From a virus: 40,910 nucleotides of DNA. The stretch lies in the IMG/VR virus record IMGVR_UViG_3300025921_000272, positions 1-40,910 of that record; one strand, given 5' to 3'. Shown here one piece after another: positions 1,308 to 19,088 of the stretch (the stretch's first letter is position 1; each line of letters begins with the position of its first letter). Below the pieces are notes generated by a model. The model was not told the origin of the DNA. It was given only the letters and a program-made list of their open reading frames with translations, and did no database searches. Position numbers and translations under genes: made by a program.

Positions 1308-1510
1308 GAGGCCATTTCAGAAAGCGGGAAGTTCAGATGGGTATATCTGGGGGGGACTCTCTCCCTGTTGAAAGTCGAATGGCACCCTCAACCGACCTCG
1401 CCGGTCCCACCTCGCATTTTCTGGTTCTCTTGTTTTTTTTTTTTTTTTTTTTTTTTATATATATAAAACCAGAACAGCATGGAAAATGAAAGTGTCCTCT
1501 TTTGAGGGCA
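1308..1510. promoter_or_regulatory. Gene-free control stretch between divergent promoters P2 and P3
   Basis: No credible gene lies between 1223 and 1623. This middle part holds a run of 24 T (1433-1456) inside an 8-base inverted repeat (TTCTGGTT 1419-1426, AACCAGAA 1467-1474). A small hairpin (1493-1510) lies directly before the P3 -35. The element CACCCTC at 1383-1389 recurs inverted as GAGGGTG at 1524-1530, and a related TTGAGGG lies at 1502-1508. Repeated sites of this kind next to two promoters fit an operator cluster; the T-run could also serve DNA bending or melting. Confidence 0.5.
1433..1456. repeat. Homopolymer of 24 T
   Basis: Twenty-four consecutive T residues, followed by ATATATATA, the longest homopolymer in the window. 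It is flanked by short inverted repeats. Its exact length may be uncertain, as runs of this size are error-prone in sequencing. Confidence 0.9.
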
Positions 1511-2985: not shown

Positions 2986-3075
2986 ATGAATAACATGTTC
3001 AAATATCAATACATAAGAATCGATTGGGATATCTTTATCGAGATGAAATATATTCCATTAATAATGATTAATTAA
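2986..3075 (+). CDS. Possible 29-aa ORF before structured RNA A
   Basis: An ATG at 2986 opens a 29-codon frame rich in Ile and aromatic residues (MNNMFKYQYIRIDWDIF...). No ribosome-binding site is clear. It ends 11 bases before the structured RNA at 3086. It may be a real micro-protein or chance. Confidence 0.25.
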   Translation: MNNMFKYQYIRIDWDIFIEMKYIPLIMIN

Positions 3076-3085
3076 TTATTTTTAT

Positions 3086-3173
3086 GGGCTGATGATTAAT
3101 TGGGAATTTAAGGGACGATATTAGCAGTGTCGTCAAATTAAATTCACCGCCTGCTAAAATTAATCATCAGTCC
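3086..3173 (+). ncRNA. Candidate pseudoknotted structured RNA A
   Basis: Four mutually compatible helices can be read. A 16-base outer stem (3086-3101 with 3158-3173) has one G-U pair. An 8-base stem (3104-3111 with 3138-3145) and a nested 5-base stem (3114-3118 with 3130-3134) are perfect. A perfect 7-base pairing joins the terminal loop (TTAGCAG, 3121-3127) to CTGCTAA (3151-3157). The last pairing crosses the inner stem and so forms a pseudoknot stacked against the outer stem. Terminal-loop-to-internal-loop pairing recalls twister-type ribozymes in topology, but I do not see twister conserved bases. No open frame fits the region. It could be a ribozyme, riboswitch-like element or processing signal. 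Confidence 0.6.
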
Positions 3174-3219
3174 TTATAAGCAATTAATTAAAAATCTATC
3201 AGCAATTCAAAGGAAAATT

Positions 3220-3264
3220 ATGTTCAAAATGACATTCCAATTGACGAGGTTAATTAATCAATGA
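3220..3264 (+). CDS. 14-codon leader ORF coupled to the 253-aa gene
   Basis: AAAGGA (3209-3214) precedes an ATG at 3220 that opens 14 codons (MFKMTFQLTRLINQ) and ends in a TGA overlapping the ATG of the next gene (ATGA, 3261-3264). The downstream gene has no good ribosome-binding site of its own, so this leader likely brings ribosomes to it. It lies 46 bases after structured RNA A, which could control it. Confidence 0.45.
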   Translation: MFKMTFQLTRLINQ

Positions 3265-4022
3265 ATCATCCATTTGTCGCGTCCCAATTAGATGTAAATA
3301 TCTGTGCTAATCCTAAATGTAAACGGTCTTTAAAAGATCATTCATTAGAAGCACAATGCGAAGCCTGTCCTAACATCGGACCTTGCGATTTATTCGGTGA
3401 TATCCTCCTCTGTAAGTCTTGCCTAGCAAAAGAATATCAAGCCGCAATTAAAAAAGCTGAGGAAAATTCCGCGGCTTATAATCTTGCTTTATCCGCTAAG
3501 ATGGATGCATTGGTTCAAATTAAAACAGATTTCTTTAATGCCGAAACAGTAGCAATTGCTGAACTTAAATCAATTATTGAGAATGATTCAACAATTGAGA
3601 ATAAGAATTACAAATTAGCAGAGGCAGTTTTAGAACGATATAAGGGATTTAAACAAGCGATATTTGAAAAGCGCGAGGAATTGTTAGGTTTGGAAAATCA
3701 GCAGAAAGCTGACCAAATTTTCCTAAATAATCTCGCGATTAAATTGCAAAAAGAAGAACGTGAAAGGTTAAATCTTAACGCGCCTGATTATGTCCCTGAT
3801 AAACCAAAGGAAACCAAATTACCTGCGATTAAAGTTGCAAAAGAAGATAAGAATATTTTAGCATTCTCAAAGATGATGAAAATCCCATTTGAGCAAGCTA
3901 AAAGGTTATATGAAGCTAGATTAGCAGCCGCGAAAGAATCTAATAAACCCGCGATTGTTGAGGAATCAAAATCACCATCTACTGAAGAAATAATGAATAA
4001 TGAAGAAGAATTTGAAGATTAA
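3261..4022 (+). CDS. N-terminal zinc-finger plus coiled-coil protein (253 aa)
   Basis: Residues 15-55 carry cysteine pairs (CANPKC, CEAC, GPC, CKSC) that make a zinc-binding head. From about residue 60 to 170 the protein is long, charged helix with heptad-like spacing, a coiled coil. The C-terminal third is Lys/Glu/Pro-rich and acidic at the end (NNEEEFED). I do not recognise the family. A zinc head on a helical stalk fits a DNA- or RNA-linked scaffold or adaptor, which is inference. Translation is probably coupled to the 14-codon leader. Confidence 0.6.
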   Translation: MNHPFVASQLDVNICANPKCKRSLKDHSLEAQCEACPNIGPCDLFGDILLCKSCLAKEYQAAIKKAEENSAAYNLALSAKMDALVQIKTDFFNAETVAIAELKSIIENDSTIENKNYKLAEAVLERYKGFKQAIFEKREELLGLENQQKADQIFLNNLAIKLQKEERERLNLNAPDYVPDKPKETKLPAIKVAKEDKNILAFSKMMKIPFEQAKRLYEARLAAAKESNKPAIVEESKSPSTEEIMNNEEEFED

Positions 4023-4479: not shown

Positions 4480-4665
4480 ATGATTAGAATTACTTGTATT
4501 AATTGCAAGAAAATTTTTAGAATTAGAAAAGTAAATTTTAGGAACAGATGTAGAAAATGCGCTAATATTTCATCACCAAATAGAAGTCATAAAATAAAAG
4601 TTACTAAGAAATTTGAAGCAATTCCAGAATCAGTTAATAAAATTAATAAGCGTAAGAAGAAATAA
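4480..4665 (+). CDS. Basic zinc-ribbon protein (61 aa)
   Basis: Cysteine pairs CINC (6-9) and CRKC (29-32) form a zinc ribbon, followed by a strongly basic tail ending in NKRKKK. The charge suggests nucleic-acid binding. It starts six bases after the upstream stop in an AATTATG context. It resembles the zinc ribbon at 19484-19705 in general style only. Confidence 0.6.
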   Translation: MIRITCINCKKIFRIRKVNFRNRCRKCANISSPNRSHKIKVTKKFEAIPESVNKINKRKKK

Positions 4666-4681
4666 TTTAATAATGGTTTTG

Positions 4682-4731
4682 GAATTCTTTTTTGATTATT
4701 CATCGCTTATAACAAAATTAAAAAAGAATTC
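4682..4731 (+). other. Perfect 12-base hairpin in the 4666-4770 gap
   Basis: GAATTCTTTTTT (4682-4693) pairs perfectly with AAAAAAGAATTC (4720-4731) around a 26-base loop. The 3' arm is A-rich, so it is not a normal plus-strand terminator. It lies upstream of a gene with a clear ribosome-binding site and may protect or pace the transcript. Confidence 0.4.
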
Positions 4732-4770
4732 TTAAGTTATTATTAATTAACAATTAAAAGGAAAATCAAA

Positions 4771-5001
4771 ATGAAAAAGAAAAAGAAAACAAAAATTATC
4801 GCGCCAAGATTGTATAACAATCACATTAGAATCAAATTCGGTCACGGTTTACCTGAAGAAATTAAAGAAGGTTTGAAGGAAATCGCGAGAAAAGATAATA
4901 TCTCTATGTCATATTTGTTAGAAGAGATTATTATCGATTACTTCAATCTACCGCGGCCGAAATATAAGAATAAGAATAAGATGCCACTGCTCAAATTCTG
5001 A
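4771..5001 (+). CDS. Ribbon-helix-helix-like basic protein (76 aa)
   Basis: After a Lys-rich start, a strand-like segment (HIRIKFG) precedes two helices, PEEIKEGLKEIARKDN and SMSYLLEEIIIDYF, with the ISMSYLLEE turn typical of CopG/Arc ribbon-helix-helix domains. It should bind DNA as a dimer. AAAAGGAAAA precedes the ATG at a normal distance. It is a second copy of the fold type seen at 1624-1833, without obvious close sequence identity. Confidence 0.6.
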   Translation: MKKKKKTKIIAPRLYNNHIRIKFGHGLPEEIKEGLKEIARKDNISMSYLLEEIIIDYFNLPRPKYKNKNKMPLLKF

Positions 5002-5020: not shown

Positions 5021-7168
5021 ATGACAAGAAAAGAAGCGTTTGATCTTGCTAAGAAATTACTAGAGCAATATCAATTACCTCAATGGCATGTCAGGTTATC
5101 AACGGTCGATAATTCTAAATATCTAGGTCTATGTGATTTCAAAACTCAAACTATATTTCTGAACGCGATCGCAATTGACCAACATCCTGATAGCGAAGTT
5201 CAGGATACAATTAAGCATGAAATCGCGCACGCATTAACGGGATTGGGAGCCGAACTAAATCCTCATGGTCCTATTTGGCAGGCGAATGCATTAGCACTTG
5301 GATGCAGAGCAAGCAAATGTGGATTAGCAATTCATCCTGTTCTAACTGATGCAATTAGAAGTGGAAATATTATCGAAGTTGAAACTGAAAAGGTAATTGT
5401 TAAAAAGGTAATTGAAGAAGAACAGGATAAAGTTACATATAAAGTTAAAAGGATTACTGAGAAATGTAAGGAATGTGGCAAGGATGCTATCGAATTATTT
5501 TCATTTGAATCTGGAGATAAGAAATATATAACTCTTAAATGTCTCCATATTCAAATAAAGGAAATTCCAAAAGGCACGCCATATGAATCTATTGTATTTG
5601 ATGGTGATAATTCTTGTAATCATACTTGGGAATTACCTGAAGAAGTAAGTTATAAAACAATCTGTTCAAAATGTGATGCTAAACGGCCGTATAGATTTCA
5701 ATTAGAAGGAATGCGCGCGGCTGAAAAAGGTTTAGCATTAAATAAAGGATTCGCTATTTTCGATGAGATGGGATTAGGTAAAACGATTCAAGGTTTAGGA
5801 TATGTAAAATTCCTAAAAGAAGAATCATTACCAGTTCTATTCGTTGTTAAATCGGGTTTGAAGTATCAATTCATGCGCGAGATTATGAGAGTTCTTGGAC
5901 TTTCATATGTCCCGCAGATTGTTAAGACTTCGCGGGATTCATTGCTTAAAGGATTTAAGACTTATATCATCGGCTATGATATGATTCGTAACTTTGATAT
6001 AAGTAAATTCGAGCAAGTTGGAATTAAATTGGTAATCTTAGATGAATGCCAATTAATTAAGAATCCCGATTCATCTAGAACAAAAGGTGTAAGAGAATTA
6101 GCAAGGGAACTTCAAGTTCTTCCATTATCAGGCACGCCGTGGAAAAATAGGGGCGCGGAATTATTCCCTGTTTTCAATTTACTTGACCCCAAAAGATTTA
6201 ATAGTTATCAGAATTTTCTTGATACCTGGGTTGAATATGTAGAAGTTGAACCTGGTAAATGGAAAATGGCAGGTATTAGAAATATTCCAGCATTTAAGGA
6301 ATATATTAAAGATTTATGCATCCGCCGCGAAGCAATCGAAGTAATGCCAGAAATGCCATCTGTTAGTAGGAATAAACTTTATTGTGAAATTCCGAATGAA
6401 GAACAGAATGCATATGATGAGGCATTAGAGGAATTTGTAAATTGGTTTAATGCAGCCACAATTGGTGGCGAAGATATTAATGAAGGTTCTATCATCGGTC
6501 AATTACAGCGAATGCGCCATATTATTGGGATGGCGAAAATTCCATTCACTGTGGAACATGTCAAAGATAGATTAGATGAGACTGATGATAAAATTCTAAT
6601 TGGTGTTCATCATATCGATGTTGGTAATATCTTAGCAGAACATATTCAGGCATATTTGGATGAGAATTATCCTGAAATTCCATTGCTAAGAATTACCAGT
6701 GATATGGATTCATTAGCAAGGGATACCGCGCAGAGAATTTATAATGAATCACCACGCGCTATTATGGTCGCGTCTACATTAGCGGCAGGTGAAGGATTAA
6801 ATCTTCAAACAGGCCATTATGGGATTTTACATGAAAGGCAATGGAATCCCGCGAATGAGGAACAGTTTGAAGGTAGAATGAAACGAATTGGACAAAAATC
6901 CGATAAGATTATTATGGATTATGTTCATGCTCAGGGAACAGTAGATGAACATCTCGATTCTATTGTAGAACCAAAAAGAAGATCATTTCATGCAGTTATG
7001 AATCATTCTTATGATAATGATGGAAATGGAAATTGCAAAATTTGCCATAAGAATGAACAAGATCATAATGTGCATTGGGATGGTGGTTCTATTATGAAAG
7101 AACTTGCAGAATCTCTCGTTAGGGATAGGAATAAGAATCGTAAACATGGGAAGAAGAAAGCAAGTTAA
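5021..7168 (+). CDS. SprT-like metalloprotease domain fused to an SNF2 helicase (715 aa)
   Basis: Residues 1-105 look like a SprT-like domain: HEIAH at 66-70 with a further His at 82 (PHGPIW). Cysteine pairs (C149/C152, C174, C199, C215/C218) follow. Residues 225-640 are an SNF2/Swi2 ATPase: Walker A DEMGLGKT at 248-255, Walker B DECQ at 341-344, SGTP at 370-373, motif V GEGLNLQT at 590-597 and motif VI with EGRMKRIGQ at 617-625. The C-terminus adds CKICHKNEQDHNVH, another zinc site. SprT domains cut proteins bound to DNA, and SNF2 motors move along DNA and strip proteins, so together they could clear host DNA-bound proteins. The protease part is inferred from one motif. Confidence 0.85.
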   Translation: MTRKEAFDLAKKLLEQYQLPQWHVRLSTVDNSKYLGLCDFKTQTIFLNAIAIDQHPDSEVQDTIKHEIAHALTGLGAELNPHGPIWQANALALGCRASKCGLAIHPVLTDAIRSGNIIEVETEKVIVKKVIEEEQDKVTYKVKRITEKCKECGKDAIELFSFESGDKKYITLKCLHIQIKEIPKGTPYESIVFDGDNSCNHTWELPEEVSYKTICSKCDAKRPYRFQLEGMRAAEKGLALNKGFAIFDEMGLGKTIQGLGYVKFLKEESLPVLFVVKSGLKYQFMREIMRVLGLSYVPQIVKTSRDSLLKGFKTYIIGYDMIRNFDISKFEQVGIKLVILDECQLIKNPDSSRTKGVRELARELQVLPLSGTPWKNRGAELFPVFNLLDPKRFNSYQNFLDTWVEYVEVEPGKWKMAGIRNIPAFKEYIKDLCIRREAIEVMPEMPSVSRNKLYCEIPNEEQNAYDEALEEFVNWFNAATIGGEDINEGSIIGQLQRMRHIIGMAKIPFTVEHVKDRLDETDDKILIGVHHIDVGNILAEHIQAYLDENYPEIPLLRITSDMDSLARDTAQRIYNESPRAIMVASTLAAGEGLNLQTGHYGILHERQWNPANEEQFEGRMKRIGQKSDKIIMDYVHAQGTVDEHLDSIVEPKRRSFHAVMNHSYDNDGNGNCKICHKNEQDHNVHWDGGSIMKELAESLVRDRNKNRKHGKKKAS

Positions 7169-13200: not shown

Positions 13201-13252
13201 TGCTTTTGGGTAGATATGTATGATTCATATCACCATGAAAGGATTAACATTA

Positions 13253-13471
13253 ATGCCAATTCCGACGCGGGAAGAATTGAGGAATAGATATTCATATCAT
13301 AGACCTGAAGGTAATCAACCTCAGAGATATGAAATTATCAGACAGAATTGTTTGCAACTAGCTGAAACAATTTGCGATAACACTCCATTTAGTAGGGAAC
13401 AGGCAACAGCGTTAACACATTTGGATTCGGTAATGATGTTTGCAAATGCAGCTATTGCGAGGAATGAATAA
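13253..13471 (+). CDS. Acb2/Tad1-hairpin-type protein, likely anti-CBASS or anti-Thoeris sponge (72 aa)
   Basis: The shape is an Asn-Arg-Tyr-Ser-Tyr-His start (residues 11-16, YSYHRPEGNQPQRY), a helix with EIIRQNCLQLAETICDNTP, then FSREQATALTHLDSVMMFANAAIARNE. The last part (SRE...ALTHLD.V..ANAAIARN) is the signature I associate with the Acb2/Tad1-hairpin family. Members sequester cyclic nucleotide signals made by CBASS or ADP-ribose cyclic signals of Thoeris, blocking abortive defence. The start ATG 13253 follows AAAGGA (13238-13243) at 9 bases; an earlier frame start at 13220 lacks such a site. It overlaps the acidic gene (TAATG). Ligand cannot be told from sequence. Confidence 0.75.
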   Translation: MPIPTREELRNRYSYHRPEGNQPQRYEIIRQNCLQLAETICDNTPFSREQATALTHLDSVMMFANAAIARNE

Positions 13472-13899: not shown

Positions 13900-13904
13900 T
13901 AGAG

Positions 13905-13975
13905 GCTAGGGATTTGATAATCTAATTTCTCTTAGGAGAATCATTAGTATATATCAATCCCTAGCTTCGCCTTTT
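13905..13975 (+). terminator. Long hairpin followed by TTTT, probable attenuator or processing site
   Basis: GCTAGGGATTTGAT (13905-13918) pairs with ATCAATCCCTAGC (13953-13965) with one bulged base. An inner helix pairs 13922-13931 with 13936-13947, with a two-base bulge and a TTAG loop. TTTT follows at 13972-13975. It is long for a terminator and a good RNase III-type substrate; with the replication genes downstream, partial termination or cleavage is likelier than full stop. Confidence 0.5.
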
Positions 13976-13990
13976 AAATAATATAATCAC

Positions 13991-18994: not shown

Positions 18995-19078
18995 GGGATA
19001 GTGGCGGAACTGGCATACGCATAGGACTTAAAATCCTAGGTCCGAAAGGAATTAAGGGTTCGACTCCCTTCTATCCCA
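18995..19078 (+). tRNA. tRNA-Leu(UAA)
   Basis: A full cloverleaf can be drawn: acceptor GGGATAG with CTATCCC (18995-19001, 19071-19077), discriminator A 19078, anticodon stem TAGGA/TCCTA with loop CTTAAAA and anticodon TAA (19029-19031), long variable arm, and T-arm AAGGG-TTCGACT-CCCTT. The 84-base length and variable arm fit tRNA-Leu. No CCA is encoded. TTA is very common in this AT-rich genome, so the gene likely supports phage translation. Confidence 0.93.
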
Positions 19079-19088
19079 CTTTAATTTT

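Follow-up and report, generated by a model that had tools for sequence, protein, structure and literature searches.

A stable orphan stem-loop with a candidate pseudoknot in the early operon of a phage from IMG/VR

Genomic setting of the element

Early in an IMG/VR virus record of 40,910 bp (analysed over its full length and referred to here as the window), the first-pass annotation had described 88 bases at positions 3086–3173 of the + strand as a compact pseudoknotted RNA. This raises the question of whether such a structure is present, to which class it belongs and what it may do between two early genes. The genes of the window run on the + strand until about 20.8 kb and then on the - strand to its end, forming two convergent blocks, and they include PHROG matches to helicase, DNA polymerase, primase, exonuclease, major head and terminase proteins. 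A search of the phage collection with the window gave no close match, and no match was obtained when the helicase was used as a query against bacterial genomes to find the host.

The element is located in the + operon, between a gene for a Cys-rich protein of 111 residues (2072–2407, +; no Pfam match) and a gene for a second Cys-rich, zinc-finger-like early protein (3261–4022, +), which is conserved in the phage group and matches neither PHROG nor Pfam. The start of the latter gene is overlapped, by ATGA at 3261–3264, by a leader ORF of 14 codons (3220–3264, +) with AGGA upstream. The element had also been called gene-free, which holds for most of it, but a possible ORF of 29 residues (2986–3075, +) ends inside the outer arm of the hairpin, with its stop codon at 3073–3075; this ORF shows weak similarity (E 0.001) to 26 residues encoded in one relative (L038).

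Several other features of the window were observed. The helicase (5021–7168, +) carries an N-terminal HEIAHAL motif resembling that of metal proteases, which is kept in relatives as HExxHAL. At 13220–13471 (+) a protein of 83 residues with a Pfam Acb2/Tad1 hairpin domain (E 3.6e-13) is encoded, which by this domain is likely to be a cyclic-nucleotide sponge directed against CBASS/Thoeris-type defence. A tRNA-Leu (UAA) gene is found within the + operon (18995–19079, +), and a run of more than 20 T residues at 1433–1456 (+), followed by ATATATATA, immediately precedes the early genes and is possibly a terminator or an assembly-sensitive site.

Architecture and stability of the hairpin

Reading of the sequence confirmed each of the four helices proposed within 3086–3173, of 16, 8, 5 and 7 bp. 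The outer stem P1 pairs 3086–3101 with 3158–3173 over 16 bp, including one G-U pair (3088–3171). Stem P2 (3104–3111 with 3138–3145) has 8 bp and can be extended by pairing GG at 3102–3103 with CC at 3147–3148, leaving a bulged A between, and stem P3 consists of 5 bp between GACGA (3114–3118) and UCGUC (3130–3134); the 7-bp helix is the pseudoknot pairing described below. The proposed extent of 88 bases contains real structure, but the hairpin is in fact longer, spanning 3068–3191. Comparison of the arms shows a palindrome with arms of 34 nt that are 85% complementary (3068–3101 and 3158–3191), adding a basal stem P0 with its 5' arm (UUAAUUAAUU plus an imperfect part) at 3068–3085 and its 3' arm at 3174–3191. 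The predicted fold of the extended hairpin has more than 40 base pairs and is irregular, with internal loops.

The nested fold of 3086–3173 has a minimum free energy of -37.8 kcal/mol (z -7.7), a value reached by none of 200 shuffles, and a composite score was unmatched in shuffled sets of relatives; the proposal that the pairing exceeds chance is thereby borne out. For the extended hairpin the + strand RNA is more stable (-45.3 kcal/mol, z -7.9) than the - strand RNA (-33.8 kcal/mol, z -5.8). Folding as DNA is also strong (z -6.5), and the ratio of G-U to A-C oppositions in the outer arms, an indicator of selection at the RNA level, is only 2:1. Ranked by GC-corrected energy among the 110-nt stretches of the window, the element comes second, the first being a terminator-like hairpin at about 785–826. 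The latter is perfect (GGCCTAGAAGGG/CCCTTCTAGGCC), is flanked on both sides by A and T runs, and is probably a bidirectional terminator separating + and - units.

Two further long hairpins occupy gaps in the + operon. One, at 4660–4752, is an AT-rich structure of 30 bp (z -6.0) that precedes a ribbon-helix-helix gene (4771–5001), and the other, at 13900–13976 (z -5.6), lies upstream of the DNA polymerase region and ends near UUUU. Both are consistent with a general role of such structures.

A candidate pseudoknot

Seven consecutive bases of the 11-nt terminal loop UAUUAGCAGUG are perfectly complementary to bases of the 12-nt 3' junction ACCGCCUGCUAA: UUAGCAG (3121–3127) can form 7 bp, all Watson-Crick, with CUGCUAA (3151–3157), which abuts P1 without a linker. 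Given the hairpin, the chance of a perfect loop/junction match of at least 7 bp is 0.0023 in shuffled pairs, and random pairs from the window give a 7-bp match in 0.34% of cases. When a descriptor of this topology was scanned over both strands of about 1.9 Mb of relatives, the element of the window obtained the top score, 38, while three dinucleotide shuffles of the whole relative set (about 11 Mb) gave no matches of 36 or higher. Of 194 strong hairpins located between genes of the group, that of the window is the only one with a clear pairing of loop and junction.

The pairing has a competitor within the same loop. In the minimum free energy structure, UAUU pairs with AGUG over a triloop, so that bases of the pseudoknot loop contribute four extra pairs to P3, and opening these would cost from 5 kcal/mol (if the GG/CC pairs are kept) to 7.3 kcal/mol. 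With nearest-neighbour values the 7-bp helix is estimated to gain about 11.5 kcal/mol, from which a pseudoknot penalty of usually 7–9 kcal/mol must be subtracted. Because the loop bases are already used and must be freed at this cost, the pseudoknot and the nested fold with extended P3 are nearly equal on paper, and the pseudoknot is not clearly better. As for the geometry, a model in which the pseudoknot helix stacks on P1 and P3, with P2 alongside and the five nucleotides ACCGC spanning back, appears feasible. The original description therefore stands in so far as the early operon contains a structured element that is not random, but its pseudoknotted form has a nested alternative of about equal stability. 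The pseudoknot may be real but accessory, adding compactness, or may be fortuitous.

Comparison with known RNA and DNA classes

A search of the region with the Rfam covariance models, as had been suggested, matched no relevant family at the gathering threshold; with permissive filters, neither twister nor any other ribozyme family appeared at E<=10, and matches to microRNA precursors were discarded as hairpin noise. In twister RNAs of type P1 the terminal loop pairs with the 3' strand of an internal loop beside the outer stem. The sequence of the element is predicted to be able to form the same pairing, and this shared topology is the part of the proposed twister likeness that persists. In contrast to twister, the 5' side of the P1/P2 junction has no unpaired bases other than possibly the GG, and both stems are longer. 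The heptamer CUGAUGA at 3089–3095 matches the hammerhead motif CUGAnGA (PMC10085705), but it is fully paired within P1, and the + strand of the window contains 18 copies of CTGANGA. For a hammerhead, permuted forms included, GAAA was found at 3045 and 3213 without flanking complementarity, and no GAAA partner is in place. A hammerhead was therefore rejected, and the sequence comparisons do not support membership of either ribozyme class.

P1 is followed by CCUUAUAAGC; since this contains no U-run, the hairpin is not a standard intrinsic terminator, and a terminator scan made no call at the element. A mobile palindromic element of the MITE type was likewise rejected, as the element is present in a single copy in the window and exact searches of IMG/VR with two patterns derived from it found none elsewhere. 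By its dimensions the hairpin is a candidate RNase III site, offering about two turns of duplex with an internal loop in a gene spacer. Early mRNAs of T7-type phages contain RNase III processing hairpins between early genes. These resemble the element in being long and irregular, with internal loops, and in lying between early genes of one transcript. They differ from it in that the element has a potential pseudoknot and belongs to a phage with a different gene plan (the two convergent blocks).

Relatives and the variable interval

More than 100 related contigs are present in IMG/VR, all of them from metagenomes. A query with the DNA polymerase retrieved 53 related loci, and one with a helicase alignment 243, the best 80 of which were used; single-gene queries with the neighbours of the element retrieved no relatives. 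Those covering the region are distant, the best helicase segments being 41–63% identical, and the only near-identical contig (L003) comprises 5 kb around the polymerase and ends short of the element. BLASTn and nhmmer searches with the element against all fetched loci gave only chance pieces of 13–31 nt, a match in L128 lying in an unrelated fold, and blastn against phage genomes gave only an AT-rich chance piece of 26 nt in Escherichia/Shigella phages. A covariance model built on the one sequence was run over loci totalling 1.7 Mb and over 50 relatives in full, and found no homologue; its best other match (E 0.05 in one genome, 0.89 over the set) overlaps the end of an ORF. Since the element is common to no relative, it is most likely a one-off mRNA stem-loop rather than a proven ribozyme or switch.

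The genes for the 111-residue Cys-rich protein and the zinc-finger-like protein form a conserved pair in dozens of relatives, with spacings from overlap or 0 to about 2 kb. The interval of 853 nt in the window, where the element lies among small ORFs that are mostly orphans, is therefore a variable region. In 11–12 of 41 distinct intervals (the window included) the best 100-nt stretch has a z-score of -5 or below; these stretches form long hairpins that are not related to each other in sequence, and some of them lie inside ORFs or look like terminators. Throughout the group, z-scores below -3 are found for 11.8% of stretches between genes and 6.8% within genes, and below -5 for 2.0% and 0.9%, respectively. 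Strong folds are thus moderately commoner between genes in general, and the interval is not clearly special. The intergenic hairpins of the group also show no strand preference, 48% favouring the + strand. A fixed hairpin site directly upstream of the zinc-finger gene was considered and rejected, as the position varies among relatives. A promoter lies beside the hairpin in 18 of 35 intervals, against 11 expected from shuffles (for instance TTGACA-17-TAGAAT in L089); beside the element of the window no strong promoter was found.

Hairpins of the same long kind occur in the same interval of other relatives, just upstream of the zinc-finger-like gene in L089 and L107 and at 1073–1151 in L194, but none has significant sequence similarity to the element. 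The hairpin of L194 starts at the stop codon of an ORF, and 7 bp could form between TCGTATC in its loop and GATACGA on the 3' side, adjoining a basal stem of the AAUUAAUU type. This pairing overlaps stem bases and would need two stems to open in part; its descriptor score of 29 equals the background. In the same gene interval of L194 (1514–1644), more than 100 bp of TAA/ATT-type repeats form a near-perfect hairpin.

Possible functions of the element

We propose, giving this about an even chance of being correct, that the element acts in the early polycistronic mRNA as an intercistronic stem-loop, setting a processing site or a protected end. The hairpin is placed between a small ORF, whose stop codon it follows, and the coupled leader/zinc-finger/helicase unit, and most likely it would separate the fates of the upstream small-gene segment and the downstream segment of the mRNA. 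It could do so as a processing site for an RNase III-type, double-strand-specific nuclease, as an exonuclease barrier protecting the ends, or both. The structure and its stability, the largely gene-free position, the greater stability of the + strand, the two further hairpins in the + operon and the unrelated hairpins in the interval of relatives are observed; from these we infer transcription, cleavage or protection, and any effect on expression. Counting against the stem-loop are the RNA-level signal of only 2:1, the missing strand preference in the group and an interval whose hairpin content does not clearly exceed that of other gaps, while the 7-bp pseudoknot is unexpected in a plain processing hairpin.

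Some of these observations would also suit a signal acting as DNA, a palindrome serving in double- or single-stranded form for regulator binding or as a replication/primase signal, or left by a hairpin-type insertion. All pairings are inverted repeats in DNA as well, with the strong DNA fold noted above, the - strand also forms a hairpin and could form a mirror-image pseudoknot, and a 9-bp direct repeat, AATTAATTA, flanks both sides (3070–3078 and 3182–3190). This repeat occurs six times in the window, however, and is therefore weak evidence; moreover, there is no second copy of the element, and hairpin positions vary among relatives. We regard a DNA-level role as rather unlikely. The extra complementarity could also be fortuitous, with a functional or neutral hairpin and a meaningless pseudoknot pairing. 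One clear case among the 194 hairpins is allowed by a chance of about 0.002 per hairpin, and the nested fold already is the minimum free energy structure; on the other hand, the stretch had been singled out before the group was used as a control, and about 11 Mb of shuffled sequence contained nothing to equal the composite score. An accident of this kind appears improbable.

If the pairing is functional, the element might be a new, self-contained cis-regulatory RNA, a ligand- or protein-sensing switch between the pseudoknot and the extended P3, two states of nearly the same energy that exclude each other and alter the access to the leader and zinc-finger gene or the stability of the mRNA. The low chance probability of the pairing, its direct junction with P1, states that compete within a few kcal/mol under the usual penalty, and the coupled leader ORF downstream would fit this. 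It is nevertheless unlikely, as no search found a homologue and neither a terminator nor a sequestered Shine-Dalgarno sequence is tied to the element. The zinc-finger gene is retained in relatives in which the element is absent, and the element does not pair with the Shine-Dalgarno sequence of the leader, so that the control of the leader/zinc-finger unit originally suggested is not borne out. A self-cleaving ribozyme of twister-like or permuted-hammerhead architecture is very improbable, since its twister-like topology and hammerhead-like heptamer are outweighed by the lack of any family match and by the pairing of that heptamer within P1. We likewise consider doubtful the broader notion of a new, compact pseudoknotted RNA domain specific to this phage, be it a ribozyme, a switch or a knot resisting nucleases, which would control the leader/zinc-finger/helicase unit through two mutually exclusive folds of almost equal energy.

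Implications

Overall, the element is a real structure, an orphan with a candidate pseudoknot, and probably ordinary in kind. If it is merely an intercistronic mRNA hairpin, it would represent a normal phage way of setting mRNA ends, although it deserves attention that this phage group tends to carry strong hairpins, unrelated in sequence, in the hypervariable stretch that separates two conserved genes. If the pseudoknot is functional, the element would represent an orphan RNA class outside Rfam.
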